In this document: positions 923 through 40,456 of the stretch, piece by piece
Layout: every line of letters starts with the position of its first letter
Position numbering within the stretch: the first letter of the stretch is position 1
DNA from: a virus
Length of the DNA stretch: 41,402 bases
Virus record (IMG/VR): IMGVR_UViG_3300022678_000086
Coordinates: 1 to 41,402 of that record
Reading direction: 5' to 3' (one strand)
Made by a program: the position numbers and the translations under genes
The notes under the pieces: model-generated
What the model was told of the DNA's origin: nothing
Databases searched by the model: none
Seen by the model: the letters and a program-made list of their open reading frames with translations, nothing else

Positions 923-962
923 TCTCCCAGTCCTTGTTCGCCTGCCCACAGTGGAGAATGCC

Positions 963-18275: not shown

Positions 18276-18481
18276 GGCGATGGCCAAGATCGATGACATT
18301 TTGGTCAATGCCGATGATGAACACCCCCTCAGCAATCCACCCACCGGCTCGGAAGTCCAGGCCCTGCAGGACCGCCTCAAGGACACGCGCGCGGTGCTGC
18401 GCGCCCTGATCCTGGACCTGAAGACCATCGGCATTCTGGGAAGCTGAGGCGATGGCCAAGATCGACGACATTTTGGTCAAT
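18138..18481 (+). repeat. 172-bp tandem duplication between fibre and tailspike genes
   Basis: Copy 1 is 18138-18309 and copy 2 is 18310-18481, directly adjacent, with only a few base differences. Each copy holds the 3' end of the fibre gene, its TGA, and the first ten codons of the tailspike gene. Because the unit crosses a stop and a start, copy 1's start now reads into copy 2's fibre end. I compared the copies by eye. Confidence 0.92.
18280..18447 (+). CDS. 55-residue chimaeric ORF: tailspike N-terminus fused to fibre C-terminal helix
   Basis: The ORF opens with MAKIDDILVN, the same ten residues that start the tailspike, then continues with the last 45 residues of the upstream fibre (ADDEHPLSNPPTGSEVQALQ ... 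LILDLKTIGILGS). It arose from the tandem duplication. GAGGCG precedes the ATG exactly as at the tailspike gene, so it is likely to be translated. If made, the peptide would carry a virion-attachment tip and the helical trimerisation segment but no body, and could act as a short cap or dominant competitor; it may also be a neutral by-product. Confidence 0.55.
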   Translation: MAKIDDILVNADDEHPLSNPPTGSEVQALQDRLKDTRAVLRALILDLKTIGILGS

Positions 18482-19849
18482 GGCGCAACCGTTTCCAAGC
18501 TGGATTTGCGCCAGTATCTCGCGGGCCGAGAGGTCGCCTCGGTGCACGATTACGGCGCCGTCGGCGATGGCATCGTCGATGATGGGCCGGCCATCAACGC
18601 CGCCTTGGCGGCCGAGGGCGCGGTGATGCTGCCAAAAGGCACCTTCCGCATCGCCACGCCGGTGGATGTGCCGAGCGGCGCGTCCTTGATCGGCACCGGC
18701 TACCAGACCGCGTTGATCGGCGACGACATGTCGATCCACGTCGTCCGCGTGGTCGGCGGCGACGCGCTGGTCCGGGGTTTGCGTATCGTCAACGGGCATG
18801 TCGGCTTGCGCTTCTGGCCGCGCGATGCACACAATTGGCATTGCCGCTGCGAACTGCTGGTGATCGAAGACAGCAATATCGGCATCCTGCTGGACGGATT
18901 CAGCGCCGGCGGGTACCGCTGCTATTGGAACCACTTTCAGCAAATCACGGTGCTACGTCCGCGTTCCTATGGTGTCCTGCTGGACAAATCGCCCGGCGGC
19001 ACCGACGACGACGCCCCCAACGCCAACAAGTTCCGCGACCTGCACGTGTTCTCCAATGGCCAGCCGATCCCGGGCGGCAGCGGCATCTATATCAAGCAGG
19101 GCAGTTTCATGAACTCGTTCGTGGACTGCGAAGCCAATATGCACACCGACGCCCACTCCTGCGTCCGTGTCGGCGCCGGCCAGAGCAACACCTTCGTGAA
19201 CCTATACACCGAGACGCAGGCGATCGTGGACAATGTCTATCTTGATCCGGAGTCGAGCGACACGCGCCTGATGAGCGTCTTCCACGTCTCGGCCGGCTCG
19301 GCGATCCGCGACTTCTCGGGCGGTGATTTCGACGCCTTCCGCGCCGGCTATCCGGATTTGAATACCTTCAAACGGACGCGCATCCGCGACGCGGTGATCG
19401 AACGGCTGCGCTACAATGTCGAGATCATCGAGACGCCCGGCACCCACGTTATCGATGCCGCCAAGACGCTGTACCGGGTCTCGGCCTTCTCCGGAGCCGT
19501 CACCATCGAGCTGCCGCACCCGAACGATTATCCGGGCGTCGTCCTGACCGTGAAGAAGAGCGACGTCTCGACCAATGCCGTGACGGTGAAGGGGCAGGAC
19601 GTGCACGGCATCCATCCGGAGGGTTATCCAGCCGTCCTGTCCCAGCAGTATGACTTTGTGACCCTGATGAGCTTCGGCGGCGGCTGGGCGATCCTGAACC
19701 GCGGCTTCCCGAACCCGATCGGTCCTTGGGTGACCCACTCGACCGCCTTCGGCCGCGACTTCAACGCCGACACAGCAACCACCTGGGACTGCGCCGTCGC
19801 CATCAACAGCCTGATCCTGGACTTGAAACTGAGAAGGATTTTGGAGTGA
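18452..19849 (+). CDS. Beta-helix tailspike (pectate-lyase-fold)
   Basis: The 465-residue product has a short N-terminal attachment segment, then VASVHDYGAVGDGIVDDGPAINAALA, the standard opening of right-handed beta-helix tailspikes, and PKGTFRIATPVDVPSGASLIGTG. The middle (residues 90-300) has repeating short strands and turns (GLRIVNGHVGLRF; GILLDGFSAGG; GSGIYIKQGSFMNSFVDCEAN; SNTFVNLYTETQ). The C-terminal domain (residues 340-465) ends in ATTWDCAVAINSLILDLKLRRILE. It probably binds, and may cut, a host surface polysaccharide; I cannot assign catalytic residues. A 3' copy lies at 27842-28086. Confidence 0.82.
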   Translation: MAKIDDILVNGATVSKLDLRQYLAGREVASVHDYGAVGDGIVDDGPAINAALAAEGAVMLPKGTFRIATPVDVPSGASLIGTGYQTALIGDDMSIHVVRVVGGDALVRGLRIVNGHVGLRFWPRDAHNWHCRCELLVIEDSNIGILLDGFSAGGYRCYWNHFQQITVLRPRSYGVLLDKSPGGTDDDAPNANKFRDLHVFSNGQPIPGGSGIYIKQGSFMNSFVDCEANMHTDAHSCVRVGAGQSNTFVNLYTETQAIVDNVYLDPESSDTRLMSVFHVSAGSAIRDFSGGDFDAFRAGYPDLNTFKRTRIRDAVIERLRYNVEIIETPGTHVIDAAKTLYRVSAFSGAVTIELPHPNDYPGVVLTVKKSDVSTNAVTVKGQDVHGIHPEGYPAVLSQQYDFVTLMSFGGGWAILNRGFPNPIGPWVTHSTAFGRDFNADTATTWDCAVAINSLILDLKLRRILE

Positions 19850-19890: not shown

Positions 19891-19960
19891 CTTCCTCTCA
19901 CCTGCATCGTAGCAGTGGGCTGCCGAAGACAGGCGCCGCTGCTGCAACGACGGCAGGCCT

Positions 19961-20076
19961 ATGACGCCTGTCCTGGCACGCTCCTCCGGTGTCGACCGCC
20001 TCTGTGCCACCACCGTTGCGCCGCGTGTCACCGCGGCCTCTCCGGCGGTCCCGGTGTTTCTCGGGTCCTGGTCCTC
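19961..20076. repeat. ~116-bp direct repeat, left copy, flanking the STAND gene
   Basis: It matches 25302-25417 along its whole length without large gaps, at roughly 85% by eye. The best-kept part includes the stem GCCGCGTGTCACCGCGGC (6-bp arms, 6-base loop). Read on the minus strand both copies give similar peptides (GEAAVTRGA.. AQR.. TPEE..GVIG), so they could be remnants of a coding or mobile sequence. Confidence 0.8.
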
Positions 20077-20361
20077 TTCGTCCCAGGCTTCGGCAGCCAT
20101 GTTTGGAGCCGACTGGCTGCAACATCGCGCGAAAGTCTCTTTCGATTCCAGTCACAAATGTATTATACCCGCTCACTATTTAATTAACACCCATTGAGTT
20201 TTGCGAGAATAGCAATTAGCGCACACAATGACACAAACCGTTGCGCCGTTTTATTCTGATAGATTCATCACGTAGCAACTTGACAAAGCCCATTGGTCCT
20301 TTTACCATGGAATTTGTTAAGCGTTCTGCTCTTGCTGGATATGGTGAACCTACGGATTGTC

Positions 20362-23300
20362 ATGGCCAAGACCGGGTCCTCCACCAAAGGGCCTCCACCT
20401 CCTACCTGTGTCTTGGTTGACACCCTGCGGCATCTAAAACCTGCGGGGCCATGCGGCATTGAAGGTTTGGTCCGCGACCTATTGGAACAGCTCACCGGCC
20501 GGACCTACAGACTGGCCCGTTCTGGCGGGCAGTTCGGTCACGATGCGCGGTCAACCGACTCTGCGGCTCCCGTCATTTTCGTCGAGGCAAAGAAATACGA
20601 GGACAACACCGGACTGAGCCGCCGCGAACTCGCCGGCGAACTGGCTGAGGCGGTTGACCAGTTCAAGCACGTCGATCTGTGGGTCCTTGCAGCCACCAAG
20701 GAGGTCGGCAGCAATGAGGACGGGCTGGTCAAACGGATGGGCGTCGAACGGGGTGTCGAAATCCTTATTCTGGATACGCGGGAGGCCGGAGCAGGCCCCT
20801 TGCAGGTGCTCTGTGCCGCCTATGCCGATACGACCACGGCGTTCATGAATGCGCACGCGCCGGCCGGAGCGGTGGACGTCGACGTTCTGTCCCAGCGCCT
20901 CGATGAAATCCGAAAGGGCGCCGGGTACAATAACAGATTGCAGGCGCTGGAAAAGACCATCGGAGGACTGCTGCTTGGCTATGCCGACGCGTGTGCCCGG
21001 ATGGCTGACTGGCTGCGCAGGCACATGGCGACTGTCGCCGATTCCAGCGTTGCCTTCAACCAGGACGTCGCTCTGACCGCGAAAGGTCGCTACCCAATCC
21101 GCCGAGAGTTCATTGCGCGGGACTTGGATGCCTGGTGGGCCGCCGACGCGCCAGCTCACTTCGCCCTGTTGGGGGCGAAGGGAACAGGAAAGACTTGGGC
21201 TGTTTTTAGCTGGCTGCTCGATCTTCTCGACTCGGACGACGCATCGCTGGTGATTCCCGTCACCTCCAACATGGCCCCGCGCGCGGACGTGCTGGACGTC
21301 GTCGCCGATACTCTGGAGCGCTGCCTGCGTGACACTCTGGGCAAACCCTCGCTGTGGTGGCGCCGCCGGATCGCTTTCTGGCTGAGTGCGCCTGCGTCCC
21401 CAGTGCGGTTGCTCCTGGTGCTGGATGGCCTGAATGAGGCGCCGGAGGCCCCCTGGCGCGCGCTGCTGGCGAGCGCCGGCGCTACGGACATCGGCACCCA
21501 TGTGCGCCTTCTGATGACCTGCCGCGAGCCATACTGGAATGAGCGCATCCCTGTGGCCCCCGGAAGCGCCACGGTGCGCCGCACCACTGGCTACGAGGGC
21601 GACGACGACACGCACAAGGAGTTGCGCCAAGCGCTTGGCCCCAGCCTGACGCCAGAGAAACTACCGAACGAACTTCTCGCGTTCGTCCGTCAACCACTCT
21701 ATTGCGACCTCGTCGTAACCCACTTTCGGGAACTGGTGGAGACGGAAGATATCACGGTCGAGCGGCTATTGTACTTGGAATCGCGCGAGAACTACCACCG
21801 GAAGCTAGGACAGCCGATCACCGACCAGCAATTCCACGAAATATTGGGCTGTCTCGCCAGGCGTCATTTGAAGGCGTGGAGGGAAGGCGGTCAAAAGCCG
21901 CGGTTCAGCAAATCCGACCTGACGGCATTGGTTCCTGCCGGCAACAACGCCCCGGCTATACTTCAGGACATCATCGACGGCGGGCTGTTGCGGCCGAGCG
22001 GACGGCATTCTCAGCCCTACGAGGTGGACGCAAGGCGGCTTACCTACGGCCTCGGCATGCTGCTGGCCGAGCACCTTGAGGACTGTGACGCGGCCACAGT
22101 GGACGACCTCGCCGAGGCGGCGCAGGCATGGTTGGAGCCGCATCCAGACATGGACCTGAAGACGTCGGCCGTCGGTGCCGCCGTGTTCTTCGCACTCGAC
22201 CAGACGATGCCGGGCTATCCCGCGCAGCACCGGCAGGCGCTGCTGCGCCTGTGGATCAAGGCCCGCAACCGTGATGAGCCGACCGGGCACGCCGTGGCCG
22301 CCTATTTTCGCAAATGCCCGGATGACATTCTTGCCGTCGCCGATCATTTCTGGCGCGTAGCGCACGATCATCCGGCAGCGCAGAGGGCCTATGCAACGGT
22401 CCTGCTGGAGCGGTGGAATAATCCAGCGCTGCAGGATCACTTGGTGGCCGCGGTCGGACGCTGGATGGGATATGTCCACGCCAATGGACACCCCGTGCAA
22501 CGCTTAATCGCCGAACACCATCCGGAACGCCCCAGTCCGGCCGATCGCCTCGCTCAAGAACTGGGTATTTCAGCTAAGCCCGGAACCGCAGTGCCGTTTC
22601 ACGACTGGGACCTGCCGATTACCGACGATGACGGTCACCTTCGGCTCGCCCGTTTCGCTGTGATGCTGATGTCAGGCGGGCGGCGCCGACCGTTCCTGGA
22701 GGGATTCGTCCGGTGGGCGGTTTCACGGCGTTTGATGGAGTTCCCGGACGAGTGTTGTGATGAGGTGGCTTGGACGTTGCGCCTGGCGGACGAGGAACTT
22801 TGGCCGGCGCTGGAGCCCACGCTGTTGGCGATGGCTGGGTCAGCCAACGATACGGTGCGGCGATCGGCCGATATGGTCCTCAAAGCGCTGGGTGACTGCG
22901 AGGCACTATCCTTGCGGGATCGTGCGTTGGCAGGGCTGCACGAAGTCAGCGACGAACGCCGCACCCATCTCGCTGATCCCTGTACCGCTCATTATGCCCT
23001 TAAACGTGACCAATGCGAGCCCTGTCTTGGCCGACCTGATGTCGCGCTCCATCGCCTTTTGGAGAAGGTCGGTCGATATTTCGTTGACCCATCGCTGTTA
23101 GCGCAAGAAGCCTTTGTGGAACGGCTGCGGGCTTCAGCCAGGAATTTTGCTGGTGATCATTTTTGGCGATTCGACGGCGCATCCGCCGAAAGCCTCGCTG
23201 CCGAACAGCACCTGCCCGCATTGGCTCGCTTTGCTCCGGACGCCCTGGGAAATCTCATGCGGCAGGCCTGGAAATCGCGGGAGGCACGGACATCGGAAAA

Positions 23301-25152
23301 CACCCGTGGGCTGATGATCAACTTGAAGGCTATCTCGCCGTTGCTACCACCCGGGACAATGATGGAGTTGGGAGCCTTTCTCTCATATGTGCCGGTTGAC
23401 GATGCCAGTGGCCGGAGCGATGGTCGAACAGCCGAGGCGTACGGCTTCGTGGCGCTCGCCATGATCCTGCCATCCGAAGCGACGGCGTTGCGTCTGGTCT
23501 ACCGCTCGCCTGCGGCATTGGACCTGACCATATTGGAGCCCTGGCTCCGTCCGCTACCACCCGGCACCGTTACCGTATTCGCCGAGCGCTTGCTGGTGGA
23601 AACCGATCCCGTTCGTGCTGCGCGCATCCTCTGGCTTATGCAACGCGCCAAGCCGACGCTCACGGATCGTCACCGCTCCGTCATCCTGGCGGCCGCACAA
23701 GGAGATCATCACCGCCTATCCGCGGCGGCGCTGGAGTTCATTGTCCGAACCCGCGATCCTGATCTGGTGTCAGGCATCCTCGAGGGGTCTTGCACTTTCA
23801 CATCGATCGATGATCGCAGCACGAGAAACGACTGGGGCATCGCCGTGCTCTGCGGGCACGCCGACCGGCTGAGTTTTGCGGATTTGCTCGAGCGCCTTCC
23901 AATCAGCGCTATTGGGCGGGCTCTTATCCGCCGCGGGACGATGGAGCGAGATGCCAACTGGTATGCGGACATCGTCGACGCCGCATGGCGTGCCCTTGGA
24001 GGGACGAACCAAGGTGGGTTCGATCTGGAACCGCCGGAGATCACCGTTGACGGCGTTGATGGTGAACAGATTCCCCGCGTCGGGGAACCGCGAAGGAAGG
24101 GCGAGACGCGGTTCGTGTCGATGGCCAGCACCTGGGGCGGACAGGCCATCGACGCCACAGCAGACGCCATTCGCGCCGCGCTGGCGCCCGACCCGAACGC
24201 GCTGGAACTGCGACAGAACCGCTACTTTGAGGCGTTCTACCAAGCTGTGAAGCAGGATCAGAATGGGTTCTGGAGAATGCCGGTCAATACCGACGTGCTG
24301 CGCGCGATGTATGCAGTGCGCCCGGACTTAGTGCGAAGCTGGGTCGATGCCGTCATGTGCGACAAGGGTGTCGCCCGCAGCCTCTTGCGCCGAGCTGATG
24401 CTTTCTATCAATCGCTGTGCCATGCTCTGGTGAATGTCGATCCGCGACGCGCCTTCGAGCTGCGCGATCGACTCCGGCGCATCGGGCACATGCGCTTTCT
24501 CGTCACAAAGGCTGGTTCCGACGAGTTGACCGCCCTGCCGTTCTCCGCCCCGGAAACGCCGGACGCTTTGGCGGCGCGGCAGGCGATGCTGGACGAGGCC
24601 ATGAGCGATTCTGCCCTACTGGATCTCGCCACGATGGCCACCGCCTTCCGTCGAGGCGATTGGATCGCCGAGAAGGCACGCGAATTGGCATCCTCACCGT
24701 TCCTGTGGCGTAAGGCCAAGGGAGCCATGCTGGCGACCCTCTCTGACCTGGACGAGGCTGTGGTTGACCACTTGTTGAGTGGCGTCGAAGAAGACGTGGC
24801 CGGGTCCTGGGTCGAGCGGCTTATCCCCGCCATTCGCGAGAAGCACCAACGCAACGGCTGGGCACGGTATTGGTACCGCCAATTCCTCGCTGCTTCGAGC
24901 TGGGACGAAGCGTACGCCGCCTTTACGCTATTCCTAAACGCAACGGACCGCCGCTGCCGCTTATGGATGGACGTGGAAGACGAAGAGGCTCGTCGAGCCG
25001 ACGGATTCGACGATCGGAAGCTCTCTTACCGTCGTACCAACGAAGATGCTGTCGACCGCGCCATAGACGTCAACGAGAAAGGTTACCATAGCCGTTTCTT
25101 GACCCTTCAATTCAAGCCTGGGCAACTCGTGCCGTTTGGTGCTCCTCTATAG
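20362..25152 (+). CDS. Large STAND NTPase with N-terminal PD-(D/E)XK nuclease-like region (candidate Avs-type antiviral protein)
   Basis: The product is about 1597 residues from the ATG at 20362; earlier in-frame starts at 20341 (ATG) and 20293 (TTG) are possible, and no start has a strong Shine-Dalgarno site. Residues 30-110 have a restriction-endonuclease-like pattern: G-I-E-G, then SGGQFGHD (Asp61) and FVEAKKY (Glu75, Lys77), i.e. D...ExK. A P-loop GAKGTGKT lies at 271-278, a Walker B LLLVLDGLNEA with Asp near 355, and an LLMTCRE sensor-like strand near 383. The remaining ~1100 residues are helical with no domain I can name. Nuclease + STAND NTPase + long C-terminal sensor is the layout of Avs anti-phage proteins, whose C-terminus recognises a phage protein; it could instead be another NACHT-like NTPase. 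It sits alone in a cargo position of a prophage. Confidence 0.82.
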   Translation: MAKTGSSTKGPPPPTCVLVDTLRHLKPAGPCGIEGLVRDLLEQLTGRTYRLARSGGQFGHDARSTDSAAPVIFVEAKKYEDNTGLSRRELAGELAEAVDQFKHVDLWVLAATKEVGSNEDGLVKRMGVERGVEILILDTREAGAGPLQVLCAAYADTTTAFMNAHAPAGAVDVDVLSQRLDEIRKGAGYNNRLQALEKTIGGLLLGYADACARMADWLRRHMATVADSSVAFNQDVALTAKGRYPIRREFIARDLDAWWAADAPAHFALLGAKGTGKTWAVFSWLLDLLDSDDASLVIPVTSNMAPRADVLDVVADTLERCLRDTLGKPSLWWRRRIAFWLSAPASPVRLLLVLDGLNEAPEAPWRALLASAGATDIGTHVRLLMTCREPYWNERIPVAPGSATVRRTTGYEGDDDTHKELRQALGPSLTPEKLPNELLAFVRQPLYCDLVVTHFRELVETEDITVERLLYLESRENYHRKLGQPITDQQFHEILGCLARRHLKAWREGGQKPRFSKSDLTALVPAGNNAPAILQDIIDGGLLRPSGRHSQPYEVDARRLTYGLGMLLAEHLEDCDAATVDDLAEAAQAWLEPHPDMDLKTSAVGAAVFFALDQTMPGYPAQHRQALLRLWIKARNRDEPTGHAVAAYFRKCPDDILAVADHFWRVAHDHPAAQRAYATVLLERWNNPALQDHLVAAVGRWMGYVHANGHPVQRLIAEHHPERPSPADRLAQELGISAKPGTAVPFHDWDLPITDDDGHLRLARFAVMLMSGGRRRPFLEGFVRWAVSRRLMEFPDECCDEVAWTLRLADEELWPALEPTLLAMAGSANDTVRRSADMVLKALGDCEALSLRDRALAGLHEVSDERRTHLADPCTAHYALKRDQCEPCLGRPDVALHRLLEKVGRYFVDPSLLAQEAFVERLRASARNFAGDHFWRFDGASAESLAAEQHLPALARFAPDALGNLMRQAWKSREARTSENTRGLMINLKAISPLLPPGTMMELGAFLSYVPVDDASGRSDGRTAEAYGFVALAMILPSEATALRLVYRSPAALDLTILEPWLRPLPPGTVTVFAERLLVETDPVRAARILWLMQRAKPTLTDRHRSVILAAAQGDHHRLSAAALEFIVRTRDPDLVSGILEGSCTFTSIDDRSTRNDWGIAVLCGHADRLSFADLLERLPISAIGRALIRRGTMERDANWYADIVDAAWRALGGTNQGGFDLEPPEITVDGVDGEQIPRVGEPRRKGETRFVSMASTWGGQAIDATADAIRAALAPDPNALELRQNRYFEAFYQAVKQDQNGFWRMPVNTDVLRAMYAVRPDLVRSWVDAVMCDKGVARSLLRRADAFYQSLCHALVNVDPRRAFELRDRLRRIGHMRFLVTKAGSDELTALPFSAPETPDALAARQAMLDEAMSDSALLDLATMATAFRRGDWIAEKARELASSPFLWRKAKGAMLATLSDLDEAVVDHLLSGVEEDVAGSWVERLIPAIREKHQRNGWARYWYRQFLAASSWDEAYAAFTLFLNATDRRCRLWMDVEDEEARRADGFDDRKLSYRRTNEDAVDRAIDVNEKGYHSRFLTLQFKPGQLVPFGAPL

Positions 25153-25490
25153 TCGTAAGGTCCGGCTATATTCGGTGATACTGTTTTGTTATCTGGGCCG
25201 GCGAGCGTTACATCAGCTTTCGTGCCGGCAAAGTTCCTATTTTCTTTGCGGCGGTCTTGATCGGCTTCCCCAAGAGACTCTCCCGACACGCAGACCCACC
25301 AATCACGCCTGACCTGCCATGCTCCTCCGGGGTCGCCGGTCTCTGTGCCACCGCCCTTGCGCCGCGTGTCACCGCGGCCTCTCCGGCGTTCCCGGGGTTT
25401 CTCGAGTTCCGGTCCCCTACCTTCCGATTCTCGCGGCCAAGGTCGGCAGACGCCCTCGCGCCCACCGGCCCTTGGCCTCCTCAATTCACC
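25153..25490. other. Non-coding stretch after the STAND gene
   Basis: Holds the right copy of the direct repeat and short flanks. Immediately after the STAND stop the sequence is briefly AT-rich, then G+C-rich. No supported gene. Confidence 0.5.
25302..25417. repeat. ~116-bp direct repeat, right copy, flanking the STAND gene
   Basis: Partner of 19961-20076, in the same orientation and offset by 5341 bases. It lies about 150 bases after the STAND gene's stop. The shared stem is conserved exactly. Only these two copies were found in the window. Confidence 0.8.
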
Positions 25491-27777: not shown

Positions 27778-28086
27778 TTGATAACACCGCATTCTCAATA
27801 TTATCCGAGCGACGTCGCAGCGAAAGGCTACGAATTTCTACACGGCGTCCATTCGGAAGGCTACCCCGCGCTCCTGTCGCAACAGTATGATTTTGTGACC
27901 CTGATAAGCTTCGGCGGCGGCTGGGCCATCCTGAACCGCGGCTTCCCGAACCCGATCGGCCCGTGGACCACCCACTCGACCGCCTTCGGCCGCGACTTCA
28001 ACGCCGATACCGCCACCACCTGGGACTGCGCCGTCGCCATCAACAGCCTGATCCTGGACTTGAAGTTGCGGCGAATATTGGAGTGA
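27778..28086 (+). pseudogene. Tailspike C-terminal remnant
   Basis: From about 27842 to 28086 the sequence matches the last 82 residues of the tailspike (HG.H.EGYPA.LSQQYDFVTL .. NSLILDLKLRRILE), with near-identical protein and perhaps 85-90% DNA identity by eye. The upstream 60 bases are weakly or not related. Only a TTG at 27778 could start it, so it probably is not translated as a working spike. It lies in the same orientation as the tailspike, 8237 bases away. Confidence 0.8.
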
Positions 28087-28997: not shown

Positions 28998-29798
28998 TCA
29001 GCTCTCGCTCCGATATCGACGCAGCCACTCATCCTTGACGTCATTTCGTTGCTGTCTGATGTTGACGGGAGCAATCTCCTTAACGGGCGCCACCCCGAGG
29101 AACCTTAAGACGTCAGACATTCGCTCCTCAAAAACATCGCAAAGGTCTTCGTAGATCACCTCACTGCAAGGCACTCCCCACAGTGGAATTGTTTTATCCA
29201 AGAAGGCGTCAAGAGAGGCCAAGTATCTAATGCATTCATCAATTCTTTCTCTGCAATAGATAATCTCTGATGCATCTTTTTTCATAGGTTTCTTGATCGA
29301 TCCCCAGTCTGGATCATCAATCCACTGGTCGGTCTCTTGAGCCACTATGAGAGAGATTGCTTGTTTGGCGAAATCCGAACGCCTGATTCGGATAATTTTG
29401 TTAGCAAATACTTCACGCGGTAAATCAATCAAGCGCAGATGCTCCATAAAAAAATGACTCGCATGAATTTTCATTCCGAAAATTCCATTTGGAGAAGTCC
29501 GAATTCCAACTAGATGATCAATATATTCTGATACCTTTTTGCATAGCACAGCTGTCCCGCTTCTCCATAGTGTTTCGCTGGCCAAATTCGGCTGTGAAAT
29601 AGAGAAGCGTTCTGAGAAATCCTCGATAAAAGCGGGCGCGAGATACTCCTCTGGTGCGCCCGCGACTCCGGACTGCCAAAGGGCTCGAACAAGCATATTA
29701 CTTCCGCTTCGCGGCGTTGACAGTATGAGGTAGGAAATCTTAGGTTTTCCCTCCCATACTGGGAAGTCGAATTCCGGCATGTTTGTCTTGTATTTCAT
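28998..29798 (-). CDS. Stf0-type sulfotransferase
   Basis: The 266-residue product has the PAPS-binding signature ISYLILSTPRSGSNMLVRAL at residues 21-40 (5'-phosphosulfate loop STPRSGS), followed by SGVAGAPEEYLAP, and a 3'-phosphate segment IIRIRRSDFAKQAISLIVAQ with ETDQW, all typical of Stf0 (trehalose 2-sulfotransferase) proteins. It should transfer sulfate from PAPS to a hydroxyl acceptor; the acceptor is unknown. ATG at 29798 lies one base after the upstream gene's TAA, so the two are translationally coupled; an ATG at 29846 would overlap. It is AT-rich compared with the prophage. Confidence 0.85.
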   Translation of the reverse strand: MKYKTNMPEFDFPVWEGKPKISYLILSTPRSGSNMLVRALWQSGVAGAPEEYLAPAFIEDFSERFSISQPNLASETLWRSGTAVLCKKVSEYIDHLVGIRTSPNGIFGMKIHASHFFMEHLRLIDLPREVFANKIIRIRRSDFAKQAISLIVAQETDQWIDDPDWGSIKKPMKKDASEIIYCRERIDECIRYLASLDAFLDKTIPLWGVPCSEVIYEDLCDVFEERMSDVLRFLGVAPVKEIAPVNIRQQRNDVKDEWLRRYRSES

Positions 29799-29799
29799 T

Positions 29800-31215
29800 T
29801 TATTTTGCCGGCGAATAATAGAGAGTTTTTGTTGATTCTGGGTCAATATAAGCTGTGAGGTTCTGAGTCGCGCGCCCTAACTCATGAAATCGCCTGACCT
29901 CCAACTGACTTGCCATTGGGGAATTGGGCTCCGGCATGTAAGCGACACCGTTCCAAGGAAAGCAGGTACCGATCTGTGGCACCGCCACCTGGCCCGGTTT
30001 CGCATGAATGGTTGTCCGAATTGATCCCGGGAAAACCTTGTTCAGCACATCATGCCGCTTTATCAAGATGTTCTCGGCGGCATAGGCCACCGCTATCTCG
30101 GTCGCCTTCTCGCCAACCAATTCGTGGAGTTCGATGACTCGATCCGGCTCATCTCCATCAAGCTCGCTCCAGTTACATATTTTCCATAGACATTCTTCAG
30201 ATACTTCGTTTTCGAAAAACCTTGTGCTGAGGTTTTGCCTCATCCCTCTTCTCAACACCCAAAACGCTTCTGCTGATTTTCCTTCAGTCTTCCGGCTAAT
30301 ATCTATTATTTTATCGTAAATCGTCTGGCGGTCTCTCGCGAATTCCTTTTCGCAGCCGGAGCGATAGTGATCAATTATCTCCTCTAGATCTATGATAGAA
30401 ACAGTGCCGGTTAGGTTTAATTTGGTTCTTTCGCCCTTCAATTTCCGAAGATAAGAGTCAGCATCAGCGGGATCTATGCCAAACATATCGGCATAAAAAT
30501 TGCCGTCCGCAGAAATCAGCCAGTCAACTCCCCAAGGGTGAAATTGGTAAAATGCAAGGCAGAGCAAATGCAATCTGATGAGAAGAGCCATCTCGCCAAG
30601 GTCAAATGCATCGGGCTGAGCATTGCGCGTTCGCAATAAGCTTTGGTCTTTGAATGGAAAAGCAGGCAAAAGACACAAGAGGCGCGACTCCGTTTCTGCC
30701 CACTTATTTATTTTCGGCTCTAGATCATTAAAGGGCGCGAAATTTCGGTTTTTTTTATTCCCAAGTTCGGCATCGGCTAAGAGTGCCCTAAAGTTTTCAA
30801 AAAGGTTCTGCTCTGTATGGCGATCAGTACTTCTATAGTATCGGTACAGCATGTGTCTCTCGCATGACAGCATATACTGTTGGAACACATTTGGATCTGC
30901 ATAGCGCTGTTCAGATACTTTTGGAAGCAGAGGTGGGGGTGCTTTCTCTCTTGCGCCCCCGAACTCTCCTTTCACAAACGCCAAGAATGCATTTTCAACC
31001 CAGGATTCATCTGGCGCATCTTTTACATGGAAATATTTTATCGGATCTTGCCAATACTCCACCGGTGAAAAAGACACGCCACTAAGTGCATCGAAGCTTT
31101 GGATTCTCCTCCGCTGGATTGAGTGCCCCGGAATGCGGACATCCCACACCCGCTCAAGCTTTGACTGAGGGGAGAAGTGCCCAAATGGCTCTACGAACTT
31201 GTCCAGCATAGCCAT
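29800..31215 (-). CDS. DIT1/PvcA-family isocyanide synthase homologue
   Basis: From the ATG at 31215 the product has 472 residues. Residues 180-250 carry the family core: LLCLLPAFPFKDQ, FDLGEMALLIRLHLLCLAFYQ and WLISADGNFYADMFGIDPADAD. Near the C-terminus IRTTIHAKPGQVAVPQIG and FPWNGVAYMP also match. PvcA/IsnA enzymes condense an amino acid with ribulose 5-phosphate to give an isonitrile; substrate here is unknown. It is longer than bacterial PvcA (about 330), with an extra ~110-residue N-terminus. The frame extends upstream to 31458 only by running into an IS remnant, so I reject that start; GGAG lies ahead of 31215. Coupled to the sulfotransferase. Confidence 0.82.
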   Translation of the reverse strand: MAMLDKFVEPFGHFSPQSKLERVWDVRIPGHSIQRRRIQSFDALSGVSFSPVEYWQDPIKYFHVKDAPDESWVENAFLAFVKGEFGGAREKAPPPLLPKVSEQRYADPNVFQQYMLSCERHMLYRYYRSTDRHTEQNLFENFRALLADAELGNKKNRNFAPFNDLEPKINKWAETESRLLCLLPAFPFKDQSLLRTRNAQPDAFDLGEMALLIRLHLLCLAFYQFHPWGVDWLISADGNFYADMFGIDPADADSYLRKLKGERTKLNLTGTVSIIDLEEIIDHYRSGCEKEFARDRQTIYDKIIDISRKTEGKSAEAFWVLRRGMRQNLSTRFFENEVSEECLWKICNWSELDGDEPDRVIELHELVGEKATEIAVAYAAENILIKRHDVLNKVFPGSIRTTIHAKPGQVAVPQIGTCFPWNGVAYMPEPNSPMASQLEVRRFHELGRATQNLTAYIDPESTKTLYYSPAK

Positions 31216-31355
31216 CAAATACCATCTCCACCGTTGTGGGCTCCATGATGAACGAATTGACCGGGGAGCCGCAAGGTTGTTCGCGCGTGCCGAGAGAGAC
31301 GGTCCCCGATTCCCGAACAGTCTGGCGGCCTCGCTACGTTTGAAACGGTTCTCCT

Positions 31356-31541
31356 CTATGCCGCCAGTTCGATGCCTTTGAGGCCGGTCTGGGCCTCGAA
31401 GGGTGTTCGTCCGTCGAGGGCCGAATGGGGCCGCTCGGTGTTGTAGTACCTGATCCATCTACCGTTGCCGACCATTGCCTCAGAGCCGGTCTCGAAGGCG
31501 TGGAGGTAGACGCACTCGCATTTCAGCGACCGCCAGTCAAG
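31356..31541 (-). mobile_element. IS3-family transposase (OrfB) 3' fragment
   Basis: The minus strand encodes DWRSLKCECVYLHAFETGSE, then RWIRYYNTERPHSALDGRTP and FEAQTGLKGIELAA, the end of an IS3-type integrase core (the ERPHSAL phrase is diagnostic). The rest of the element is missing. It lies between the two divergent arms of the cluster. Confidence 0.8.
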
Positions 31542-31576
31542 GACCGCAAGCAGAGAGAGGCGCTGCGAACCGCTCC

Positions 31577-31994
31577 GCCTCCGCGTGGCCGGCCGCGCAA
31601 GGACATGACGGCGCGCGAACGCATGGACCGCCGCCTGCGCACCAAATGCGGCCGCGAGACCTATGCCAAGCGCGGCAAGACCATCGAGCCGGTGTTCGGC
31701 CAGATGAAGGGCACCCAGGGCGTCGGCCTGCTCATGATGCGCGGCCTTGAGGCCTGCTCGGGCGAATGGCAACTGGACTGCCTGCCCCACAATCTGAAGA
31801 AACTGCACGTGGAGTCTGTCCGCAGGGCGGAAGAAGAGGCGAAAATGACGGCTCACCGAGCGAAATGGATGGAAAAGGACGAGACTACCCGCTACAATAG
31901 GACCAGCGCAACACCGAAGCGGGCTTCCGAGCCACGTATCTCGTCGGCGGCGCGGGATTGGGCAACAGGCTCCCGAGATCCAGCAGTGCGTTAG
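31577..31994 (+). mobile_element. IS1182/IS5-group transposase 3' fragment
   Basis: The plus strand encodes RRLRTKCGRETYAKRGKTIE, PVFGQMKGTQGV and GLEACSGEWQLDCLPHNLKK, the end of an IS1182-type DDE transposase (the EPVFGQ.K phrase). The catalytic N-terminal part is absent. It abuts the IS3 fragment on its left and the amidotransferase start on its right, so this control region is a patch of two elements. Confidence 0.78.
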
Positions 31995-31997
31995 CGA

Positions 31998-32723
31998 ATG
32001 AGTGCGAAGCCCAAACCTCAAACATGCCGCCGTCCCGTGCTATGCATAGCGCATAGTGATAACAATACGTTAGGACGATTCCCGTCGGTTCTTTCAACAC
32101 TTCAATGTAGCATCGAGCGCGTAAACTTTCTTTCAGGCGGGACCCCCGATCATAAGGCACAACGCTACGATGCGGTCATCATATTCGGCGGCCTGGCGTC
32201 TACAGCAGAAGGGCTCGGAGCTGAATTTGTTCCTGAGATAGAGTTCATTGAATGCGCTGTAAGAGCTACGACTCCGGTGTTGGGCATCTGCCTCGGCGGG
32301 CAAATTCTTTCCGAGATTTTTTGCTCGCCCTTGAGAGCTACGGTGTCGTCGGTTCCCGAGGTCGGCTTCACGGAAATTATACCAAGCTCTCCCGACTTGA
32401 ATAGTTTTTGGAGCCATAAGAGCTTTTTTCAATGGCATTGGGACTCAATGCCCTGTCCCACTGATGCGATCAACCTCGGCCGAACGGAGAGATTCGAATG
32501 CCAAGCATATTCAATTGACAACGCTGTCGCGCTTCAATTTCACCCAGACGCGACAATTGACACCATAAGATCGTGGATCTCGCTCGGGGAGCAAACAATC
32601 CGAGATCATAGCGGCCGGACTCCCGAAGAACATATCGCTGAAGCTCAAAGTCATGAAGATGGCGTACATCAGTGGACCACGGAGTTAATGCGGTCGCTAA
32701 TCGAGAGAAAGGACATGCTTTGA
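31998..32723 (+). CDS. Class I glutamine amidotransferase (GATase1)
   Basis: The 241-residue product has the GATase1 layout: VLCIAHSDNNTLG at the start, YDAVIIFGG, the nucleophile elbow PVLGICLGGQI (Cys98) and VALQFHPDATI with His182. It would release ammonia from glutamine for a partner enzyme. The residue after His-Pro is Asp184 where most GATase1 enzymes have Glu. No synthetase domain is fused, so the acceptor enzyme must be separate; the aaRS-like or PLP enzyme of the same operon are candidates. The start is next to an IS remnant with no clear Shine-Dalgarno site, so the true start may differ. Confidence 0.82.
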   Translation: MSAKPKPQTCRRPVLCIAHSDNNTLGRFPSVLSTLQCSIERVNFLSGGTPDHKAQRYDAVIIFGGLASTAEGLGAEFVPEIEFIECAVRATTPVLGICLGGQILSEIFCSPLRATVSSVPEVGFTEIIPSSPDLNSFWSHKSFFQWHWDSMPCPTDAINLGRTERFECQAYSIDNAVALQFHPDATIDTIRSWISLGEQTIRDHSGRTPEEHIAEAQSHEDGVHQWTTELMRSLIERKDML

Positions 32724-33412
32724 GCGACGAAAACGATCCTGAACGACGTCTAGGCAAGGGCTTAGCGACTGCGACCGGCGGTGCACTCATCGGAGCCGCG
32801 ATCGGCGGTCCTGTGGGTGCGGTTATCGGTGGCGCTGTGGGTCCCTTATCTGACTATTTGCTCGAAGCTCGGAAGAGACAGCTGGAGCGAGCCAGAGCCT
32901 TGGCGCTTCGCTCATCACAACTTTCCGGCCTTAACCTGGATGAATTCCTTGTTAAACTTTCGAGTGATGAGCGACTATCAGATATTGGCCTCCGACTGCT
33001 CGAAGTTGCGGCAAAAAGCGACAACCCAGATCGAGACAACGCCATGGCGATGCTCTTGGCGGAGGCATTGACAAGGGATGCAGCCACAGAAATCGACGGA
33101 TATGAGGTTCTTGCAGAAGTGCTGGCAGATCTCCGGCGCCCTCATATCGATGTTCTAATGCATATCTTTGATGCAACGCGAACGGACGAAAGTGAAACGA
33201 TCTCTCCAAAAGAGGTAGTTGATAATTTTCCAAATTTCTCAAGCATAATAAGAACTGTTATAAGAACTCTTGAGTTGCATGGCCTAATACTTGATGAAAA
33301 TCGACTAGCCGATCCGCCATCGAATGAAATTAAATGGCGAGTTAGCGAACTTGGAGAGGCCCTCGCATCGATCGTAAGAAGTGCGCAGGAGGAGGTTGGA
33401 AAAAATGAATGA
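32720..33412 (+). CDS. Glycine-zipper membrane protein with winged-helix-like C-terminus
   Basis: The product has about 230 residues. Near residue 20-45 is a glycine zipper (GGALIGAAIGGPVGAVIGGA), which should insert in or pack against a membrane. The remainder is mostly helical; the last 80 residues (SPKEVVDNFPNFSSIIRTVI, RTLELHGLILDEN, IKWRVSELGEAL) look like a winged helix. I know no matching family. The TTG at 32720 overlaps the amidotransferase stop and has AAAGGA upstream; a GTG at 32672 is a longer alternative. Its end overlaps the next gene's start. Role unknown: self-protection or membrane anchoring are guesses. Confidence 0.6.
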   Translation: MSDENDPERRLGKGLATATGGALIGAAIGGPVGAVIGGAVGPLSDYLLEARKRQLERARALALRSSQLSGLNLDEFLVKLSSDERLSDIGLRLLEVAAKSDNPDRDNAMAMLLAEALTRDAATEIDGYEVLAEVLADLRRPHIDVLMHIFDATRTDESETISPKEVVDNFPNFSSIIRTVIRTLELHGLILDENRLADPPSNEIKWRVSELGEALASIVRSAQEEVGKNE

Positions 33413-34550
33413 TAGAATTCATCTCAACAACGCAGGTGCATCGCTGGTATCGGATGCGACACTCTCAAAGATGGTGTCTTTTTTAGAGCTAGAACAAAAA
33501 ATTGGTGGTTATGAGGCAGCTTCACAATGCTTAGAGGATATCGAGCGTTTCTATTCTGTTGTTGCGCGTCTCATTGGTTGCGAAAAAGAACAAGTTGCCT
33601 TTTCTGAGAGCGCAACGCGCGCGTGGAACACGCTGATCTTTTCCCTAGAAATGAAGCGCGGTGATCGAATTGTCACGACATCAACCGAGTTCGGTAGCAA
33701 TGTTGTTTCACTGCAAAGCGTGGCCGAAAAAGTCGGTGCGGATTTAGTCGTTCTGGACGTTCAAGATGATGGGCTCATTGATATTTCTGAGCTGGAAAAA
33801 TACATCGACGGCAACCTAAGGCTGGTTGCACTCTCGCATGCGCCTGCACATTGCGGAAGTGTGATCAACGCAGCTGAGATAGGTCAACGCCTCAGGGGCA
33901 GCCAAGCATTGTATCTGCTTGACGCATGTCAGACACTCGGCCAATTCCCACTATCTGTTGCTGACATCGGCTGCGATGCTTTGGTCGCAACGGGACGAAA
34001 ATGGCTCCGAGGACCGAGGGGAACTGGCTTCTTATATGCGAATGATCGTGTGCTCTCGTCAGCCAAGTCGATTGCCGTTGATCTGGCGAACGCAGACTGG
34101 CTGTCTGAGCCCAAGGATGGGAGCCAAGTATCATTTTTTAAGAAGGCACAAAGGTTCCAAACGTGGGAACGTTCACTTGCGGGCCAGATCGGCCTTACAA
34201 ACGCAATAGATGAGTATCTCGAAAAAACGAGCGAAACTTCGGTTACCGACGCTATACAAAGGCTTCGATCTCTTGCGGCAGAAGCCGTGCGAAGCAACTC
34301 GAAACTTGTCGAATACCCAGGCGGAAATGCGGGCAGTGGAGTTTTTACCTTCTACAGTAGATCGGTTGAGGCGGGAGATATAAAAAATACGCTCTCAAAG
34401 AACAACGTAAATGTTTCTTTAATGAGCGATTGGGATGCGCCATGGGACTTTGCGGCAAAGAAATTGCCAACGCTGGTGAGGGTCTCGCCGCACTACATTA
34501 ACTCACAGTCCGATCTCGACGTTTTTTCGCAAGTTGCTAGTGAAATTTAG
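33405..34550 (+). CDS. Class V PLP-dependent enzyme (aminotransferase/cysteine-desulfurase-like)
   Basis: The 381-residue product has the fold-type I, class V pattern: HLNNAGASLVSDATL, AFSESATRAWNTLIFSL, LVALSHAPAHCGSVINAAEI, LLDACQTLGQFPL (Asp173, PLP pyridine) and ATGRKWLRGPRGTGFLY (Lys199, Schiff base). No desulfurase-type active-site Cys loop is obvious, so it is more like epimerase, lyase or EgtE-like members. AGGAGG lies ahead of the ATG at 33405. It overlaps the preceding gene by eight bases and the next gene begins three bases after its stop, so it belongs to one operon. The substrate is unknown. Confidence 0.85.
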   Translation: MNDRIHLNNAGASLVSDATLSKMVSFLELEQKIGGYEAASQCLEDIERFYSVVARLIGCEKEQVAFSESATRAWNTLIFSLEMKRGDRIVTTSTEFGSNVVSLQSVAEKVGADLVVLDVQDDGLIDISELEKYIDGNLRLVALSHAPAHCGSVINAAEIGQRLRGSQALYLLDACQTLGQFPLSVADIGCDALVATGRKWLRGPRGTGFLYANDRVLSSAKSIAVDLANADWLSEPKDGSQVSFFKKAQRFQTWERSLAGQIGLTNAIDEYLEKTSETSVTDAIQRLRSLAAEAVRSNSKLVEYPGGNAGSGVFTFYSRSVEAGDIKNTLSKNNVNVSLMSDWDAPWDFAAKKLPTLVRVSPHYINSQSDLDVFSQVASEI

Positions 34551-34553
34551 GCA

Positions 34554-35678
34554 ATGGTGAAAATTATTCATCACTTCTCGGCCGATGTGCACAATCATTT
34601 TCACGTGCACGGACCGGATGATCTGTTTGCTGAAATTCGTGGTTTGATCATAGTGCGAAAGAATGCTGGTCGCACCGTTTTCCTCACACTTCGGGACGTG
34701 ACTGGCGAAATCCAAGTTTTGCTATTAGCTGAGAACTTTTCGGAGGAGGATTTTTCGTCGAAGTGTAAGGCATTGCGGAAAGGTGATATTGTATCGGTGA
34801 CTGGCAGAGTTGAAAAGAGCCGCGCTTCAGAAACCGTGTCAATCTTGCCGAGCGAGCCGCCAAAAGTTGTGCCGATTGATGCCGAAAACACGTTCGAATT
34901 GGATCAAGTCCCATATCTTGCCTCTGGCTCCAAGATCATCCAGGCGCGGATTGTCGAAGGCATAGAGCGCTCATTGCGTTCGCTGGGCTTTCTCGAGATC
35001 GAGCCAAAGCTTCTATCGACGGAGTGGAATGGTAATGGCTTGGAGCCGTTGAGAGCGGAGTTTCCCGGCTTCGGCCATAACGTCTATCTCGTTCCCTCTC
35101 CATTACCTCAGCTGTTTGAGGCGTTGATATCAACTGGACATCGTGCTTTTTTCGCAACGAGCAAATGCTTCAGCACGAGTTACCGAGACATTCACTCAAG
35201 TTCGGAAGCTACTTCAATTTTTTCGATTGAACGGATGCCTGATGACGTAAAAGATATCAATAACGTTTCTAGAACTGCGCTCAAGTGTTTGAAAGATCTC
35301 TTTTCACGCACAGGTACAGCGCTACCTGAGATTTCAGAATGGTTTTCTCGGAATTTATTTTATCATTCTGAAGGAGGGTGGCCTAATAACAGGTGGAATG
35401 AGATAGGTATTGGCATTTTATCGGTTTCGAACCCGCGAATTCCGGGGCGTTTATCCGATGGCAAAAGCTCAAATTTGGGGCATGTTCAGATCGAAAGGTA
35501 TCTGAGAGTAGTTTTAAATCATAATGGCTCACGATATAACTTGGCGGAATCTACAGTAGAAGTGCGATTCGGTGCGCTTCGTGTGATTACAACAACTATT
35601 CATACAGAGCACTTGCTTAGCCTGTTTTCGACAGCGCCGTTTAGGTCGCTTCGAACTTCAACATTCTGGAGCGAATAG
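34554..35678 (+). CDS. Divergent class IIb aminoacyl-tRNA-synthetase paralogue (Asn/Asp/Lys group)
   Basis: The 374-residue product starts with an OB-fold anticodon-binding-like domain (IRGLIIVRKNAGRTVFLTLR, DVTGEIQVLLL, GDIVSVTGRVEKS) as in AspRS, AsnRS and LysRS. The second part looks like a class II core: motif 1-like IIQARIVEGIERSLRSLGF, a PSPLPQLFEALISTGHRAFF stretch (motif-like PQL and active-site strand), and a motif 2-like YRDIHSSSEATSIFSIE with a single Arg. The usual motif 3 glycine-arginine end (GxGxGxxR) is not seen; VEVRFGALRVIT may be a remnant. It is smaller than true AsnRS (about 440-470). It probably activates an amino acid for the pathway and is unlikely to serve general translation; this is inference. 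Confidence 0.75.
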   Translation: MVKIIHHFSADVHNHFHVHGPDDLFAEIRGLIIVRKNAGRTVFLTLRDVTGEIQVLLLAENFSEEDFSSKCKALRKGDIVSVTGRVEKSRASETVSILPSEPPKVVPIDAENTFELDQVPYLASGSKIIQARIVEGIERSLRSLGFLEIEPKLLSTEWNGNGLEPLRAEFPGFGHNVYLVPSPLPQLFEALISTGHRAFFATSKCFSTSYRDIHSSSEATSIFSIERMPDDVKDINNVSRTALKCLKDLFSRTGTALPEISEWFSRNLFYHSEGGWPNNRWNEIGIGILSVSNPRIPGRLSDGKSSNLGHVQIERYLRVVLNHNGSRYNLAESTVEVRFGALRVITTTIHTEHLLSLFSTAPFRSLRTSTFWSE

Positions 35679-35682
35679 AGAG

Positions 35683-36009
35683 ATGCCGATTGTTGACGTA
35701 TTTGGGAGAGGTGCGTCACTCGATTACGCGAGGGCAGACTCGACCTTTTTGTTGGCACTGACTGGCGACGAGCTGAGCGATGAGGAATGGCCTATCGACG
35801 GGGACCACATAAGTTTGAGATTTATAGAAGTCGACGGCAGGCAGATTGGCGATTTAGAGCTTGTGATATCGGCACATTCATTTACTGGTCGAGCAGATAG
35901 AAAGGACGAAATATGCTCGCGTATTCGCAAGTGTTTGGAGGAGCGCTGGAAGGTGGAGGTTCGGGTGTGGTTAAAGTTATTTGATATGGGATATGGGGTG
36001 AAAGATTGA
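35683..36009 (+). CDS. Small hypothetical protein at the end of the operon
   Basis: The 108-residue product has mixed alpha/beta character: FLLALTGDELSD, HISLRFIEVDGRQIGDLELV and a C-terminal helix EICSRIRKCLEERWKVEVRV. I do not recognise a family. It begins four bases after the aaRS-like stop (AGAG upstream) and is AT-rich like the operon, so it is probably co-transcribed. It might be a carrier or a regulatory subunit but nothing in the sequence shows that. Confidence 0.6.
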   Translation: MPIVDVFGRGASLDYARADSTFLLALTGDELSDEEWPIDGDHISLRFIEVDGRQIGDLELVISAHSFTGRADRKDEICSRIRKCLEERWKVEVRVWLKLFDMGYGVKD

Positions 36010-36751: not shown

Positions 36752-38116
36752 CTAACCCGGCGGGCTGGGCTGTAAATCCCTGATTGTCCGGCGCGCGGCC
36801 AGCAGCCGGGCCAACACATGACCAGTCTCGCTGATGCGGATGATCAATTGCCGGGATTTGCTCACGACGCGCCCGGGCAGATTGATCAGGTGATATCGAA
36901 CCGCTTTCAGTCGTCGAGACACCCAATTCGGCCCGAGGACTAAGCGCTTCATGGCAGCATTCAGGTTGTGGGAGAGGATCATGGTCGCCCACCAAGCGGC
37001 ATTTGCCCCGAACCGCCCCGACGGTAACCGGCCGCCGGCAAGATCGTCCTTCATGACGGCGTGAACTTCTTCACTCTTGCCGCACCGTTCTCGAAGCCAC
37101 CAGATCACCTCGTCGCCGGGAATGTTTCGGTTGGTCACGATCCCGAACAGTTTCATGCGCCCTTTCTTGTCGAACTCTTCGGTCGGAAACGGAAGCTGGT
37201 CGGCATCTCCAATATCCAGTTGCCCAAATGGCTCTCGGAGTGCAATGAACCGGTATTCCGCCCGGTTGCGGCTGTTTCCTGCCCAACTCGGAACGAAACA
37301 CACCTCCGCCCACTCCTGATCGGTCTTCGACGGAACACCGTCGATCGGCCGATACAGCGGTCGCCAGTCTGCGTCGGACACAGACAGAACCGCCTTGCGG
37401 AACTCCCGGGTTACGTCGGCGGATACGGCGAATTCGATGACCCCCAGCGCCCGCTCCGCAGGATCGCTCCGGTTTTCCGGTTCGGCGCACCAGCAGTTCA
37501 ACGGCTGGTAGGCCTTGAACCCCTTATAGCAATGAAAGGCTTGGCGCTTGCTGGTTTCGATCAGCGTGGCATCCATATCAAGGGTCGCCACCGTTTCAGG
37601 GTGATGCGCCTGAATTGAAGCAACCAAAGACTGGTTGACCTGCCAAAGGCTGCGAAGGGCCTCGGTCATCGGCCAGATGAAGGCCTTGCCTGCGACGCGG
37701 GCCTGCTCCGCAGTTTCGTCGTGAAACCGCGACAGCCATTCCAAAGCTGAGGACGGCGATGGAACCGCCCGAGACCGCTGCTTGCGCCAACGGCTCTTCA
37801 AGGATCGACGTTCGGACCGTGACAGAACGCCGCGTTCAATCTCCCGGAGGACCCGCTGAAATCCGGCATCGTGTTCCAGACGCTCCAGGTCCTCGACGCT
37901 CTCGCCGCCAGCCAGGTTCAGGAAGATCAAAGCCAGAACCATCTGCAGGTCCAGCCAGCCCTGTGCCCCCGCCACCCGCACGAACCGCCGGATCGCCGCC
38001 GTCAAGCCCAGCTTGACCGCCAGGTCAAGGTAAATCGGCAAGCCGCCCAGCGCCGTTGTGCCGCTCGTTCCCCTTTCTGCTTGGTACTGGAAACCAAGAA
38101 CGCCCTGTGCCAACAT
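36752..38116 (-). mobile_element. IS1380-family transposase, apparently full length
   Basis: The 454-residue frame is uninterrupted and has the IS1380 pattern: FLNLAGGESVEDLERLEHD, the first catalytic Asp in TLDMDATLIETSK with FHCYKGFKAYQPL, RFIALREPFG, KLFGIVTNR, WWLRERCGKSEEVHAVMKDD with the late Glu, AWWATMILSHNLNAAMKRL and a final IINLPGRV-type segment with KSRQLIIRIS. Length is normal for the family. I could not establish the terminal inverted repeats or a target-site duplication. The element lies at the border between the foreign cluster and what looks like host DNA. Confidence 0.9.
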
Positions 38117-40096: not shown

Positions 40097-40456
40097 TCAG
40101 CGCCGGCGCAGGAAAACGGCAGCCAGAGACACCAGCGCACCGCCGCCGAAGATCGCCGCGACCCACTCGCGGTCGTAGAGGATCGCGAGGCAGACCGCGC
40201 CGATCGCCGCCAGGGTGACGATCAGCGCGAAATATTGTGGCCGTCTGTGCGCATGATCCTCCTCCGACCGGGATCGGCTGTATGGATTGCGCGGCCGGTA
40301 CTCCGAGAACGGTGGACCATCCGAGTATTCTGATCGAAGCGGAGGACGGGACCGGAGATCGCCTTCATTCACAGGGCGTGGCTCTACGTCACGTTGTGCC
40401 CCCCGCCGCGGAGGACGGGACCGGAGATCGCCTTCATTCACAGGTCTACGGACCAT
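40097..40456 (-). CDS. Small membrane protein with duplicated basic N-terminal segment
   Basis: The 119-residue product has a long Arg/Pro-rich N-terminus containing two exact copies of RPVNEGDLRSRPP, 23 residues apart, then two likely membrane helices (FALIVTLAAIGAVCLAILY and AAIFGGGALVSLAAVFL). The C-terminus is basic. I know no family. An ATG at 40456 opens it, without a strong ribosome site; the last third is more certain than the start, because the N-terminus is built from a repeat. Confidence 0.55.
   Translation of the reverse strand: MVRRPVNEGDLRSRPPRRGAQRDVEPRPVNEGDLRSRPPLRSEYSDGPPFSEYRPRNPYSRSRSEEDHAHRRPQYFALIVTLAAIGAVCLAILYDREWVAAIFGGGALVSLAAVFLRRR
40339..40444. repeat. 37-bp direct repeat pair inside the membrane-protein gene
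   Basis: Copies at 40339-40375 and 40408-40444 are identical and 69 bases apart, a multiple of three, so the repeat is in frame and encodes the duplicated RPVNEGDLRSRPP segment. Confidence 0.85.

Follow-up and report, generated by a model that had tools for sequence, protein, structure and literature searches.

The gene block at positions 28,998 to 36,009 of the IMG/VR virus record IMGVR_UViG_3300022678_000086 raises the question of whether it encodes a biosynthetic pathway and, if so, which of its genes belong together. The window, i.e. the whole stretch of 41,402 bases analyzed here, had been annotated in a first pass as carrying a minus-strand pair, encoding an Stf0-type sulfotransferase and a homolog of the isocyanide synthase family PvcA/DIT1, and a divergent plus-strand operon for a class I glutamine amidotransferase (GATase), a glycine-zipper protein, a class V pyridoxal 5'-phosphate (PLP) enzyme, a protein resembling class IIb aminoacyl-tRNA synthetases (aaRS) and a small protein of no assigned family. 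All seven genes were present and open, and Stf0, PvcA-like, GATase, PLP and aaRS-like proteins exceeded the Pfam cut-offs of the families assigned to them. The open reading frames (ORFs) of the glycine-zipper and small proteins were likewise confirmed; the name of the former derives from Pfam matches that are all sub-threshold. As shown below, two of the seven genes, those for the PvcA-like and the aaRS-like protein, are neighbors at a second, divergent locus.

The PvcA-like and aaRS-like genes recur together

Degenerate patterns derived from the window protein and from solved PvcA structures were scanned across 84,980 species genomes, and the best 80 of 126 PvcA relatives were kept. Among these, only one aligned with the window protein over nearly its full length (31% identity, residues 14-455 of 469, E 3e-57). 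It is encoded at locus L010, a contig of 4,080 bases from a groundwater metagenome-assembled genome (MAG) unrelated to the window. The PvcA-like gene of L010 is the third of three in a row. The second, which has the same orientation and lies 12 bases upstream, encodes an aaRS-like protein that aligned with that of the window (27.6% identity, E 2.9e-19). A profile of the two aaRS-like proteins matched none of the 80 PvcA loci besides L010, and genuine lysyl- and aspartyl-tRNA synthetase (LysRS and AspRS) genes scored about 20-39 bits with it. Phylogenetic trees paired the window with L010 for both proteins, on long branches, with support of 99/98 for PvcA and 100/100 for the aaRS-like protein.

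That mutual best relatives lie next to each other at two widely differing loci can hardly be put down to chance. Because L010 carries the pair and the 79 other PvcA loci (1.48 Mb) lack such a neighbor, sequence comparison indicates that the PvcA/aaRS link is conserved, resting on this one extra locus. The suggestion that the two proteins belong together was thus supported, and the two arms of the block do co-occur elsewhere, at a single locus and by way of this pair. Homologs of Stf0, GATase, PLP, glycine-zipper and 108-residue proteins were absent from the 79 other PvcA loci. Since the pattern scan demanded exact short motifs, further copies of the pair may exist.

Additional searches were made with the individual proteins. 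A profile of the long PvcA form was run against about 1,560 sampled genomes (399 of Pseudomonadota, 369 of the class of G323, 377 of Actinomycetota, 189 of Planctomycetota, 172 of the phylum of L010 and 58 of the phylum of G010) and found this form only in the genome of L010 itself, most samples being without a positive control. In tblastn searches of plasmids, the PvcA-like protein gave no match and the aaRS-like protein gave distant LysRS-type matches only. Close relatives were not found in IMG/VR with PvcA, aaRS, PLP, GATase or Stf0 queries.

The PvcA-like protein is a long form with altered residues

The ORF of the PvcA-like protein could encode 552 residues. As it enters insertion sequence (IS) DNA at this length, and judging from homology to L010, the likely start lies near position 31209. 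The 469-residue protein scored as a member of the PF05141 superfamily (57 bits, cut-off 26.4) but missed the NCBIfam equivalog TyIsonSynPvcA by a wide margin (29.2 versus 600 bits). Its AlphaFold2 (AF2) model was of medium confidence (predicted local distance difference test (pLDDT) about 75-93 in the core), and Foldseek matched it to PIsnA (9dh4, E 4e-10) and PvcA (3e59, E 1e-9). The matches that followed, a class I tyrosyl-tRNA synthetase and a cyclodipeptide synthase, were weak (E 0.01-0.4). Both are users of tRNA. On the basis of the model, the PvcA fold may have a HUP-type Rossmann core in common with them.

An alignment of 29 PvcA members, the window protein included, contained 15 invariant columns. 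The core residues retained in the window protein are LPAFPxK, Asp203, Glu206, Asp235, Tyr253, Arg398, His402, Pro418 and Trp419. Three positions that are near-invariant in 78 other PvcA proteins were altered identically in the window and in L010 (K193R, T417F and H420N). In the window protein Pro403 is additionally replaced by alanine, and residues invariant across the 80 PvcA loci, among them the lysine of LPAFPxK...K and TPWHG, are not all retained. Because these changes fall within conserved motifs, an altered substrate or donor is plausible, and with K193R and H420N common to both proteins an isocyanide is a possible rather than an assured product. Yeast Dit1, of the same family, was reported to form formyl tyrosine rather than an isocyanide (PMC7345447); membership in PF05141 therefore does not fix the product, and an isocyanide cannot be assumed here. 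A PvcA variant of Actinomadura flavalba (L011:9587-10840) was intermediate between the canonical and long forms; it keeps the lysine, has glutamine for the histidine and carries an N-terminal extension.

The aaRS-like protein has kept its OB fold and lost motif 2

The aaRS-like protein carries an oligonucleotide/oligosaccharide-binding (OB) fold (PF01336, 41.2 bits, cut-off 27) and stayed far under the NCBIfam cut-offs for LysRS and AspRS. Its sequence matches were to synthetases for lysine, aspartate and asparagine, which does not fit descent from alanyl-tRNA synthetase (AlaRS). Residues were counted after aligning it with one AspRS and three proteins of LysRS type. The invariant positions of the OB fold were largely retained (11/16 in the window, 12/16 in L010), and the conserved positions of the catalytic core were retained at 9/43 in each protein. 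Motif 2, FRxE in the synthetases, reads FSTS in the window and FSNE in L010, so that the arginine is serine in both. Motif 3 (GxDR/ER) has become EH in the window, and ER is retained in L010.

Owing to the loss of the motif 2 arginine, ordinary amino acid activation is unlikely, and the protein probably lacks this activity, contrary to the role first ascribed to it. AcmF of ascamycin formation is an AlaRS-like protein in which most ATP-binding residues are gone and the tRNA-recognition domain is kept, and it acylates a natural product from Ala-tRNA; SbzA, which resembles isoleucyl-tRNA synthetase (IleRS), uses Ile-tRNA (PMC12945691). As AcmF has the same pattern of loss and retention, we favor, by analogy, a role in aminoacyl transfer from tRNA or in presenting a charged tRNA to the PvcA-like enzyme.

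A small-molecule pathway and alternative explanations

We propose, at somewhat less than an even chance, that the block is a horizontally acquired small-molecule pathway which lies next to a prophage of alphaproteobacterial type or is carried by it, its core being the long-form PvcA and an activation-less aaRS-like protein with a tRNA-binding OB fold. The aaRS-like protein would bind a charged cellular tRNA in the manner of AcmF or SbzA and would either transfer the amino acid to an intermediate of the pathway or present it to the PvcA-like enzyme. The latter would modify the amino nitrogen to an isocyanide or formyl group, a hydroxyl would then be sulfated by Stf0, and side chains would be tailored by the PLP enzyme (C-S lyase type) and the GATase (gamma-glutamyl or amide hydrolase type). 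The glycine-zipper and 108-residue proteins would also be members. The idea that an undescribed pathway is built around a PvcA homolog and an aaRS paralog is strengthened by these results, and its chemistry is revised. The specific step in which a PvcA-superfamily enzyme acts on a tRNA-attached amino acid, brought to it by a protein that derives from a class IIb aaRS and has no activating site, is on its own unlikely.

Several observations weigh against the proposed pathway. The PvcA/aaRS pair co-occurs independently only once. Within its own MAG, the L010 contig deviates most in composition (distance 0.285, next highest 0.242), and its source organism is therefore uncertain. L010 has no homolog of any other window protein, though the contig is only 4 kb long; the rest of the MAG (43 contigs, 12-20 kb of the long ones) contained no homolog of Stf0, GATase, glycine-zipper or orphan proteins and gave a single weak PLP match. 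The AF2 model of the aaRS-like protein had a pLDDT of 33.5 and was not used, so that a class II geometry finds no support in it, and the ligand of the OB fold may not be tRNA.

These points bear on the alternatives as well. A pathway made up of the PvcA-like and aaRS-like proteins only, perhaps with Stf0, would leave GATase, glycine-zipper, PLP and orphan genes as unrelated cargo assembled by insertion sequences. Remnants of IS1182, IS3 and IS1380 in and next to the block, a recurrence limited to the PvcA/aaRS pair, and the frequency of the PLP and GATase families elsewhere without PvcA all agree with this explanation; it is nevertheless rather unlikely, the aaRS-like gene being placed inside a tight operon with these four genes. 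The scheme of the first-pass annotation, in which the aaRS-like protein activates a free amino acid as its adenylate, GATase provides ammonia, the PLP enzyme reshapes this amino acid, PvcA forms an isocyanide from it and Stf0 sulfates the product, agrees with the family assignments and with the linkage in L010. It is very unlikely in view of the motif 2 arginine lost in both aaRS-like proteins and the EH of motif 3 in the window, the lack of an ammonia-using synthetase partner, and the K193R and H420N exchanges.

For a canonical isocyanide cluster of the ordinary kind, accompanied by unrelated neighbors, PF05141 membership and the PvcA/PIsnA fold can be cited. Such a cluster is highly improbable given the PvcA equivalog score, the altered invariant residues and the absence of a PvcB-type oxygenase among the genes identified by Pfam and NCBIfam scans. 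The location of the block in a viral record, directly behind lysis genes of the phage, a NACHT-like protein nearby, the AT-rich cargo and a weak resemblance of the PLP enzyme to DndA/SspA would fit a phage-borne module for defense or stress, in which the glycine-zipper protein would act as the effector at the membrane and the enzymes of nucleotide or tRNA type would serve as sensors or produce signals. PADLOC returned no defense family besides the weak DndA/SspA match, the PvcA fold is that of a small-molecule enzyme and L010 is not visibly phage; a defense module is thus quite unlikely.

Organization of the block and its other genes

Coordinates are compiled in Table 1. The plus-strand operon shows short overlaps followed by gaps of 3 and 4 bases, as had been described. 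The Stf0 ATG is one base away from the stop of the PvcA-like gene, which suggests that this pair is probably translationally coupled. The block was also correctly characterized as AT-rich: GC content is 46-53% across both arms and mostly 59-68% outside. The first-pass annotation overlooked about 0.6 kb of truncated IS DNA between the arms, in a kilobase of 60% GC. As IS1182 and IS3 fragments separate them, the arms do not form a clean divergent pair. The IS3 fragment weakly matched Azospirillum.

Table 1. Positions of features in the window and at locus L010
Feature	Position	Strand	Match or remark
Short protein, spanin look-alike	ends at 28966		PHROG 26778
Stf0-type sulfotransferase, 266 residues from ATG 29798	28998..29798	-	PF09037, 79.8 bits (cut-off 22)
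Long-form PvcA/DIT1-superfamily protein, 469 residues, N-terminal extension of about 160 residues	29803..31209	-	PF05141, 57 bits
IS fragments between arms, both truncated	31356..31994	IS3 C-terminus -, IS1182 C-terminus +	PF13683/NF033516, PF13751/NF033551
Class I glutamine amidotransferase-like protein	31998..32723	+	PF00117, 41.9 bits (cut-off 22.8)
Glycine-zipper protein, probably starting with TTG at 32720 and overlapping the GATase stop	32720..33412	+	Sub-threshold YMGG/C19orf12 matches
Class V PLP enzyme, EgtE-like subfamily	33405..34550	+	PF00266, 159.7 bits (cut-off 21.5)
aaRS-like protein with intact OB fold, decayed class IIb core and serine for the motif 2 arginine	34554..35678	+	PF01336, 41.2 bits
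108-residue orphan protein, final operon gene	35683..36009	+	No family match
IS1380-family transposase, right border (context, outside pathway)	36752..38116	-	NF033539, 151.5 bits (cut-off 180)
DUF3830 (cyclophilin-like) protein	L010:166-579		Directly upstream of aaRS-like/PvcA-like pair
aaRS-like protein	L010: about 626-1723		Preceded by GGAGG
PvcA-like protein	L010:1736-3115		

Stf0 retained the 3'-phosphoadenosine 5'-phosphosulfate (PAPS)-loop motif LSTPRSGSNML and looks functional from its sequence, without reaching the TrhSuTaseStf0 equivalog (62 versus 400); it shares 25-28% identity with alphaproteobacterial Stf0 proteins. The GATase scored 116 with PRK06490 (cut-off 339) and matched TM1158 (1o1y, E 2e-17). 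Its catalytic cysteine (GICLGG) and histidine are kept, and the glutamate of the triad is aspartate (QFHPD). Because of this exchange and the lack of a synthetase partner, the enzyme seems more likely to hydrolyze a gamma-glutamyl or amide bond than to supply ammonia, a role that we consider unlikely.

The PLP enzyme retained its PLP lysine, Lys209 (ATGRKWLRGPRGTGF), and remained below the equivalog TIGR04343 for the hercynylcysteine sulfoxide lyase EgtE (147 versus 400 bits). Plasmid homologs share 35-38% identity with it, and the plasmid neighborhoods of PLP and GATase homologs revealed no cluster in common. A function as cysteine desulfurase or DndA/SspA (SufS/DndA) was rejected, as no cysteine occurs in the last 70 residues. 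One may speculate that the PLP/GATase pair follows the C-S lyase plus gamma-glutamyl hydrolase logic of thiol-forming pathways. The glycine-zipper protein had no homolog on plasmids by tblastn. The 108-residue protein found no match in Pfam, NCBIfam, PHROG, the PDB or plasmids (tblastn); its MPIVDV start was considered as a lead to a Pro1 tautomerase/CHMI and dismissed (hhalign probability 0.1, no HMM score), and no alignment was obtained with the DUF3830 protein of L010 as a possible counterpart. The linkage of the Stf0, GATase, glycine-zipper and PLP genes is seen in this window only.

Setting on the viral record

Tail genes occupy the left part of the record (J-like protein, PHROG 5616, E 4e-95), and the nearest phages are Roseobacter phages. 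The block begins 32 bases past the end of a prophage lysis-type gene whose short product looks like a spanin by sequence. To the right of the block, the IS1380 transposase is accompanied by a YkuD protein and by one with a FliG_C domain. The matches of the IS3 fragment to Azospirillum, of the phage genes to Roseobacter phages and of Stf0 to alphaproteobacterial proteins suggest that the prophage host was probably alphaproteobacterial.

Elsewhere on the record, the 3' end of a tail-fiber gene is duplicated (19604-19849 and 27841-28086, 89% identity), as is another stretch (19958-20077 and 25299-25418, 86% identity). Both duplications flank a 1619-residue protein (20293-25152) with a sub-threshold NACHT match, and the region so bounded is a cargo slot of the prophage. 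A tandem duplication of 181 bases (18133-18313 and 18305-18485, 96% identical) is located where two tail genes meet. An AT-rich, moron-like gene with two bacterial Ig (Big_9) domains lies on the opposite strand within the tail region (2299-3696, minus strand), and an exact direct repeat of 37 bases was found at 40339-40375 and 40408-40444.

Comparison with known systems

PF05141 enzymes are usually annotated as isocyanide synthases, and their known partners include oxygenases, nonribosomal peptide synthetase domains and P450s. The window protein shares Pfam family, core residues and fold (3e59, 9dh4) with PvcA, IsnA and DIT1. It differs from them in its length with a long N-terminal extension, in the K193R exchange, in FPWNG for TPWHG and IHAKPGQ for IHPQP, and in having no PvcB-type oxygenase found beside it. 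The PLP enzyme, Stf0 and GATase likewise have the folds and main catalytic residues of the EgtE-like, Stf0 and PRK06490-type families, whereas they lie far under the equivalog cut-offs and the GATase triad contains Asp for Glu. No relevant paper was found in the literature library searched that pairs PvcA or an isocyanide synthase with a tRNA synthetase, and none that unites PvcA and a sulfotransferase within one pathway.

With LysRS, AspRS and the LysRS paralog PoxA, the aaRS-like protein has the OB fold and a weak core homology in common, but it lacks the motif 2 arginine, keeps about 20% of the invariant core positions and has shorter insertions. Like AcmF and SbzA it is derived from a synthetase and stands in a small-molecule context, and like AcmF it is shortened, with ATP-binding residues lost and the tRNA-binding part kept. 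In contrast to both, the pattern of its sequence points to a class IIb (Lys/Asp/Asn type) origin rather than AlaRS or IleRS, and its partner is PvcA-like, whereas theirs is a sulfamate or sulfonamide pathway. If the tRNA-dependent reaction holds true, it would be the first tie between isocyanide- or formyl-type modification of nitrogen and charged tRNA, and with the aaRS-like protein the AcmF/SbzA group would include a class IIb member for the first time. A divergent PF05141 subfamily linked to a degenerate tRNA synthetase would broaden the substrate range of such enzymes and would extend the short list of natural-product enzymes using aminoacyl-tRNA by a new aaRS lineage, for which the two loci, at about 30% identity, offer a concrete protein pair for testing.

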